A DNA stretch of 46,159 nt from Chloroflexota bacterium (GTDB lineage Bacteria; Chloroflexota; Dehalococcoidia; Lucifugimonadales; Lucifugimonadaceae), in assembly GCA_018649665.1 (NCBI GenBank), contig JABIHL010000073.1, positions 1-46,159 on the forward strand. Reading direction: 5' to 3'. Each line of letters begins with the position of its first letter. Position 1 is the stretch's first letter. The position numbers and the translations under genes were made by a program. This document shows, piece after piece, positions 14,033-32,226 of this stretch. The notes beneath the pieces were generated by a model. That model searched no databases and was not told where the DNA came from. It worked only from the letters and a program-made list of their open reading frames with translations.

Positions 14033-14300
14033 ATCGTGCTAGGTGGGGCGTTAGCGGTGCCCTGTACTCGTAATCCGCTTTAGCGAGACTGAATGCTCTG
14101 TCGAGATTGTTCGCATGTGGCCTCTGGTGTCAGTATTTAGATATTGAGAGCCTGGTCCTGCGCGGCGAGACCTCGTGAACTCCGTCAGGACCGGAAGGTA
14201 GCAGCGGTAAGCGATAAATCTCGGGTGCCGTGGGAATGCCGGGTTTGAGTCGATATTGGCACTTATGCTTCAAGCAGCAACCGACACGGAGATGCACGGT
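14033..14300 (+). ncRNA. ffs: Signal recognition particle RNA, long (Alu-domain-containing) bacterial form
   Basis: S-domain core gtgaactccgtcaggaccggaaggtagcagcggtaag (about 14174-14211); 5' Alu-like ggtggggcgttagcggtgccctgtactcgtaatccgctttagcgag; ends pair atcgtgc (14033-14039) with gcacggt (14294-14300); U-rich tatttttcttt follows. Confidence 0.92.
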
Positions 14301-30855: not shown

Positions 30856-31491
30856 ATGTCAGAAAATACGACAGTCAAGATCGATGTATTCATCGACTAC
30901 ACCTGACCATGGGTTCGACAGGCCGGCATTTGGCTGGCCAGGGTGAAAGAAGAACTTGGGGATGACCTCGAGATCAACTGGCGAAGTTTTGCTTTGGAGC
31001 AGGTTAACTCCAAAGAAGGCGAAGACTGGAAAGCATGGGATCAGGGCGCCGACTACGTGAGTCGAGGTCTCTGGTCGCTCCGAGGCGGTATCGCTGCACG
31101 CGCACAGGGAACTGCAGCACACAACGACTATATGGAAAAGATTCTTCACGCCAAGCACGTCGAACGCGAAGACGTGCGCACTCGTGAATCGGTCATAGCT
31201 ATTGCTGCTTCTGCTGACCTAAATATCGATGAGTTCACGGCTGTTCTTGACGATCCTGAATCTCTCGCGCAGATTGGGATAGATCATGAAGAGGCGCTTA
31301 CGCATGGTGTGTTCGGTACTCCGACTTTCGTATTCGAGGATGGAACAGCCGCTTTCTTGAAAATGTTCACTCCTCCTGAAGATGAATCGATGAGTGCGTT
31401 CAAAGACTTCATGGGTATTGCTAGTGGTCGTAAATACTTTGGTGAACTAAAACGTCCGCAACCACCTTGGCCTCGCGGCGTTCAGGATTAA
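30856..31491 (+). CDS. DsbA/FrnE-family thioredoxin-fold oxidoreductase, candidate selenoprotein with in-frame TGA at 30904-30906
   Basis: ATG at 30856: MSENTTVKIDVFIDYT[TGA]PWVRQAGIWLARVKEELGDDLEINWRSFALEQVN...GVFGTPTFVFEDG; the family active-site Cys aligns with the TGA; downstream frame continues to TAA. Confidence 0.82.
30921..30939 (+). promoter_or_regulatory. Candidate bacterial SECIS hairpin
   Basis: ggccggc-atttg-gctggcc, 7 bp with one G-U pair; apical loop begins 22 nt after the TGA. Confidence 0.5.
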
Positions 31492-31503
31492 GACTGCACC
31501 CCA

Positions 31504-32226
31504 TTGCCGACATCACCGCTTGAAATAGACGATCTCATTGCGATCGAAAGTGCGCTGGACGTCACGTTCATTGATCGTGATCTTCTCATGCTGGCGCTCA
31601 CTCATCAGTCATATATAAACGAACATCCCGACGAGCTTCCAGTTTCTAACGAAAGATTAGAGTTCCTAGGCGATTCGATCGTGGGAATGATTGTTGCCGA
31701 TCGGTTGTACGTAGGTGCTCCCAATCTGCCAGAAGGCGATCTCACGGTTCGGCGTTCGCAGGTCGTTCGAAGGGAAACATTGGCTGCTGCTGCCAGATCG
31801 ATCGGCTTAAGCGAGTGGTTAGTGATGGGACGGGGCGAATCTGCGGCTGGCGGGGCGGATCGAACATCTAACCTTGCCGATTCGTTTGAAGCTATCGTTG
31901 GAGCGGTTTTCATAGATCAGGGATACGAACAGGCTTATTCGTTCGTTAACCAGTGGTTGGGTCCATATGTCGACGACGCACTCCGAACCGAAACTCAAAA
32001 GGATCCGAAGTCGCTATTGCAGGAACATTTACAAGGGAACGGCAGCAAGCCTCCTCGTTATCGTCTAGTCTCGGAATCGGGCTTACCAAGCGAAACTGTT
32101 TTTACGATGGAAGTCGTTATCGACGGCGAAGCCATTGCGTCAGGCATAGGATCGAGAAAAATTGATGCAGAACGGGAAGCCGCTGCACGAGCACTAAACA
32201 TACTTGAGTCCAACTCAAACGAATAA
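31504..32226 (+). CDS. rnc: Ribonuclease III
   Basis: NERLEFLGDSIVGMIVADRLY signature; C-terminal dsRBD; TTG start. Confidence 0.95.
   Translation: MPTSPLEIDDLIAIESALDVTFIDRDLLMLALTHQSYINEHPDELPVSNERLEFLGDSIVGMIVADRLYVGAPNLPEGDLTVRRSQVVRRETLAAAARSIGLSEWLVMGRGESAAGGADRTSNLADSFEAIVGAVFIDQGYEQAYSFVNQWLGPYVDDALRTETQKDPKSLLQEHLQGNGSKPPRYRLVSESGLPSETVFTMEVVIDGEAIASGIGSRKIDAEREAAARALNILESNSNE

Follow-up and report, generated by a model that had tools for sequence, protein, structure and literature searches.

The locus and its reading frame

Within the window, by which we mean the whole 46,159-nt stretch of DNA that was analysed, the forward strand carries at positions 30856-31491 a gene that, translated with TGA as selenocysteine (Sec, U), encodes a protein of 211 residues with a DsbA-like fold, one Sec and no cysteine. 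The frame runs from an ATG at 30856 to a TAA stop, and its sole interruption is the TGA at 30904-30906 (forward strand), read as Sec at residue 17 in the catalytic position, where the codon of the relatives is either TGA or Cys and nothing else. In the translation the active site reads DYT-U-PWV, and Val occupies position +3. A profile search matched PF01323 (DSBA) over residues 9-163, a span that includes the TGA (E 1.7e-15, 57.8 bits against a cut-off of 25.6), and in the alignment the differences among close relatives 5' of the TGA fall mainly at third codon positions, i.e., they show coding-type evolution. Further downstream on the same strand lie the cis-Pro loop GVFGTPTF (residues 151-158, 31306-31329), of which F153, G154 and P156 are invariant in 29 sequences, and the C-terminal stretch GELKRPQPPWP (residues 196-206, 31441-31473), of which E197, K199 and P201-P206 are invariant in the same set. 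The first-pass annotation had placed and described this gene correctly: the frame from the ATG with a single TGA, the TGA in place of the catalytic Cys (Cys homologues align there), the intact cis-Pro loop, and a lone Sec without a UxxC motif were all borne out.

The RNase III gene rnc, identified by Pfam, lies directly 3' (31504-32226, forward strand) and is a conserved neighbour, with an RNase III match in 85 of 114 related loci. In relatives, rnc is often followed by a gene for an SRP54-type GTPase (FtsY-like), and the 5' neighbour is often a divergent poly(A)-polymerase-type gene. We read the position before rnc as a mark of orthology and vertical descent; as a neighbour, rnc offers no redox hint and no clear functional clue. 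Elsewhere in the window, at 14034-14299 (forward strand), a bacterial large SRP RNA was found (169 bits).

Distribution of Sec and Cys forms and the Sec machinery

The source organism belongs to SAR202 (Chloroflexota). Among 60 related genomes, a TGA homologue was present in 36, a Cys homologue in five (G023, G024, G033, G034 and G044) and only weak matches in two, so that TGA accounts for 36 of the 41 genomes with a readable codon and Cys for the other five. The TGA form is spread over several families. Counted by locus, in a set in which some genomes are counted twice, TGA occurs in 104 of the 119 loci with a readable motif and Cys in 15, with no other residue at this position. A scan of GTDB genomes returned 80 loci, all with titles naming Chloroflexota, Dehalococcoidia or SAR202 bacteria, while across the phylum a match was found in 45 of 399 Chloroflexota genomes, and those that were read carry Sec or Cys. 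The loci of two long open frames in other members of the phylum (G448 and G272) carry Cys-form domains. The search of IMG/VR for relatives found none. The closed genome of the cultured strain Ca. Lucifugimonas marina JH1073 (CP046147), which is a PacBio assembly (PMC10444878), encodes a homologue of 86% identity with the same TGA. The first-pass annotation had proposed looking for Cys homologues and further TGA homologues, and both are found, the TGA homologues across the clade.

In a tree of 109 distinct proteins, built with the catalytic residue masked and with some long branches unsurely placed, the Sec/Cys state changes at least eight times, and five of these changes are forced by well-supported branches. 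Switching between the two residues therefore appears to have been repeated, as far as it can be read from the protein tree.

The machinery for Sec insertion, which the first-pass annotation had also proposed to look for, is complete in the genome of the window: a tRNA-Sec (66.4 bits, anticodon TCA) is accompanied by SelB, SelA and SelD (320, 529 and 366 bits, respectively, in profile searches). A TGA in the catalytic site of this SelD (TCAGUAGK; L060:1228-2538, contig C168) makes it a selenoprotein in its own right. Every one of the 36 TGA-form genomes has SelB. Three of the five Cys-form genomes (G023, G024 and G033) are without SelA, SelB and tRNA-Sec; G034 and G044 keep all three. The genome of the window also holds a thioredoxin gene (WCGPCK; L001:1-290) just 5' of the tRNA-Sec gene, and a thioredoxin-reductase-like gene whose score lies below the family cut-off. 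Stop codon use in the 33 long ORFs of the window (TAA 15, TAG 14, TGA 4) is marked by rare TGA and unusually common TAG. The RF2 gene prfB (L162, contig C70) contains a classical programmed frameshift site, AGGAGACTTTGACC, and RF2 would accordingly be autoregulated at UGA in the same genome that inserts Sec at UGA. The presence of RF2 with this site, together with the few genes in the window that stop at UGA, shows that UGA is not reassigned in general and still terminates translation elsewhere.

A predicted SECIS hairpin and the reading of the TGA

A bacterial SECIS hairpin is predicted on the forward strand at 30921-30939, in which 30921-30927 pair with 30933-30939 to form a 7-bp stem with a 5-nt loop, 15-33 nt 3' of the UGA; synonymous shuffles and wobble covariation support it. 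The most stable hairpin at this position averaged -9.70 kcal/mol over 23 non-redundant Sec forms, compared to -6.41 kcal/mol in synonymous-codon shuffles (z -7.5, reached by 0 of 400), the null model being applied to the hairpin position only and to the pooled non-redundant sequences. The same test gave no signal in the Cys forms (n=8, z -0.11), nor at six downstream control offsets. In the clade of the window, 91% of cells pair, and one pair, which joins the wobble positions of an Ala codon and a Leu codon, is seen as CG, UG, GC, GU and UA. Of 500 shuffles, one reached the covariation score, and no slid register came near it; this shuffle test can be inflated by relatedness, whereas the codon-shuffle test with its Cys and offset controls is independent of it. 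The minimum free energy of the whole stretch against synonymous shuffles was uninformative for individual sequences, because much of the stem is held in place by the encoded amino acids.

The bSECIS model describes a stem-loop just 3' of the UGA, with its apical loop 16-37 nt away and a G in the first two loop bases. The hairpin, its position and its covariation agree with this description. The loop of the window, AUUUG, fits the rule on G only with the top two pairs open, while in more distant members the register is shifted by one and the loop is GUGU, in which the rule holds, consistent with the published model. In the genus of the window, SelB mostly matches the family model over no more than the first 350 of 581 positions, in a frame of more than 600 aa (in the genome itself, contig C159:4250-5353). 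The SECIS-binding end of SelB would thus be diverged in this genus, perhaps in connection with the unusual hairpin loop.

Two explanations would dispense with Sec altogether. The TGA could be a sequencing error or a nonsense mutation, with a working protein that either has Cys or starts at the GTG at 30943, as in the ORF track. The window comes from a 180-contig assembly, and a start at 30943 does give an open frame of 182 aa; against this, the same TGA recurs in the 36 genomes from several families and in the closed PacBio genome, coding constraint persists 5' of it, and translation from 30943 would leave out the first strand together with the catalytic residue. The conservation of the TGA refutes this explanation in practice, and we consider it extremely improbable. 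A reading of UGA as Cys or Trp, through an altered genetic code or a suppressor tRNA, could draw on the rarity of UGA as a stop in the window, but it conflicts with the tRNA of tRNA-Sec type with anticodon TCA and the accompanying SelA, SelB and SelD, with an RF2 that has a UGA frameshift site, and with a SECIS signal 3' of the codon that is seen in TGA forms only; it is very improbable as well, if slightly less so. It is almost certain that an internal stop codon of the SAR202 gene is read as Sec, and the small protein so made is probably a redox protein. Standard ORF calling truncates this selenoprotein at the TGA, and the active site is lost.

Fold, proposed chemistry and relation to known systems

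The invariant residues in 29 aligned members are D14, U/C17, P18, W26, L47, F153, G154, P156, K169, P173, E197, K199 and the tail PQPPWP. The subfamily is marked by its conserved C-terminus, GExKRPQPPWP. An AlphaFold2 model with Cys substituted for Sec (mean pLDDT 92.7, the tail being less certain) has residue 17 immediately ahead of the helix 18-37, the first of the fold, and Sec17 is predicted to share a face with the cis-Pro loop. In the PDB, Foldseek ranked DR2335 of D. radiodurans first (TM 0.82), ahead of YjbH and Rv2466c (0.65-0.70 for the latter), with kappa GST and 2-hydroxychromene-2-carboxylate isomerase at about 0.6; DR2335 was also the top match in a sequence-profile search (E 5e-22). 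The protein is probably cytoplasmic, since there is no N-terminal extension ahead of the first strand. NCBIfam contained no model for the one-Sec DsbA family, and its Rcas_1661 selenolipoprotein was rejected as the family identity (21 bits against a cut-off of 190).

We propose that at codon 17 the UGA is decoded by SelB and Sec-tRNA-Sec, which would use the hairpin just 3' to insert Sec; the machinery and the hairpin come from the sequence, and insertion would follow from them. As the protein has no Cys, Sec17 would act alone: its selenolate would attack a disulfide, a mixed disulfide or a peroxide, and an external thiol, either thioredoxin or a low-molecular-weight thiol, would resolve the product, with the Cys relatives performing the same chemistry with sulfur. 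The Sec/Cys-only column, the full Sec machinery with a SelD that has its own Sec, the presence of SelB in every TGA-form genome and the lack of the machinery in three Cys-form genomes, the SECIS signal, the DsbA fold, the single-Cys DR2335 as nearest fold, and the thioredoxin and thioredoxin-reductase-like genes in the same genome all count in favour of this scheme. Against it count the loop of the window, which obeys the bSECIS rule only with the top two pairs open, and the conserved neighbour rnc, which suggests no redox role. Its functional part is drawn from anatomy, because DR2335, the closest single-Cys relative, has no reported function (PMC8945050), and the literature reports no activity for any single-Cys member of the subfamily; a one-Sec thiol oxidoreductase working with an external thiol is the likely reading. 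Alternatively, the selenoprotein might be a transferase or an isomerase of the GST-kappa or 2-hydroxychromene-2-carboxylate isomerase type, whose lone nucleophile would activate or bind a thiol cofactor. The lack of a second Cys and of CxxC, together with the occurrence of both enzymes among the fold matches, would suit such a role, although their TM values are lower than those of DR2335 and Rv2466c, and the strict alternation of Sec and Cys without Ser points to redox chemistry. We regard the transferase or isomerase role as unlikely, while the explanation as a whole, a DsbA-fold and probably cytoplasmic selenoprotein with a one-Sec thiol oxidoreductase or peroxidase cycle, has a good chance of being right.

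SAR202 ranks among the major clades of the sea. Of the relatives of the window that use selenium, most have retained this protein, which ties the physiology of SAR202 to selenium. More tentatively, a distinct one-Sec DsbA subfamily (GExKRPQPPWP, beside rnc in SAR202) might catalyse a selenium-dependent reaction that has yet to be described and that matters generally to this deep-ocean clade, in which Sec and Cys were exchanged repeatedly as the Sec system was lost or relaxed. As the TGA is shared by Ca. Lucifugimonas marina, the protein can be studied in a cultured strain, while the natural Sec/Cys pairs with one catalytic residue offer a clean setting for what Sec adds.

The designation as DsbA/FrnE-like stood only for the DsbA fold. 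FrnE, Rv2466c and other DsbA-family oxidoreductases with CPWC share with the SAR202 protein the fold, the position of the first catalytic residue and the cis-Pro loop, but they have a second Cys where it has U-P-W-V and no Cys at all. It groups instead with proteins of the DR2335 type, which have one catalytic chalcogen residue and no CxxC, and among which it finds its top match by both fold and profile. DR2335 (PDB 7dk9, 7dka) carries a single catalytic Cys in the place of Sec17; identity is about 21%, and the PQPPWP end is described here for the present subfamily.

Selenoproteins of this type are already known from ocean metagenomes, and of the novelty first proposed for both lineage and subfamily, that of the lineage stands, together with that of the details. 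In Table 2 of the Global Ocean Sampling selenoproteome of 2008, DsbA 3 (pfam01323, five Sec sequences and 72 Cys homologues) shares the Pfam domain, the unusual UxxV motif, the marine origin and the Cys homologues (PMC2398784); its row gives no host, function or structure, and the likeness is by domain and motif only. A 2026 review tabulates a DsbA-like protein form 2 (MDP6049977.1) with PF01323 and the motif DxxUP, here DYTUP, again matched by domain and motif only; that entry is catalogued under a crotonase/enoyl-CoA hydratase name (PMC13188914), and no crotonase fusion was seen in the window. Among the papers searched, none combines selenoproteins and SAR202, and the host lineage, the conserved position before rnc, the repeated changes between Sec and Cys and the connection with DR2335 therefore appear to be new, as does the SECIS covariation. 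An owner is thereby given to a family that had figured mostly as a row of motifs in tables from metagenomes. Like other bacterial selenoproteins, it has a UGA that aligns with Cys homologues and is conserved in relatives, in a genome that contains the machinery.
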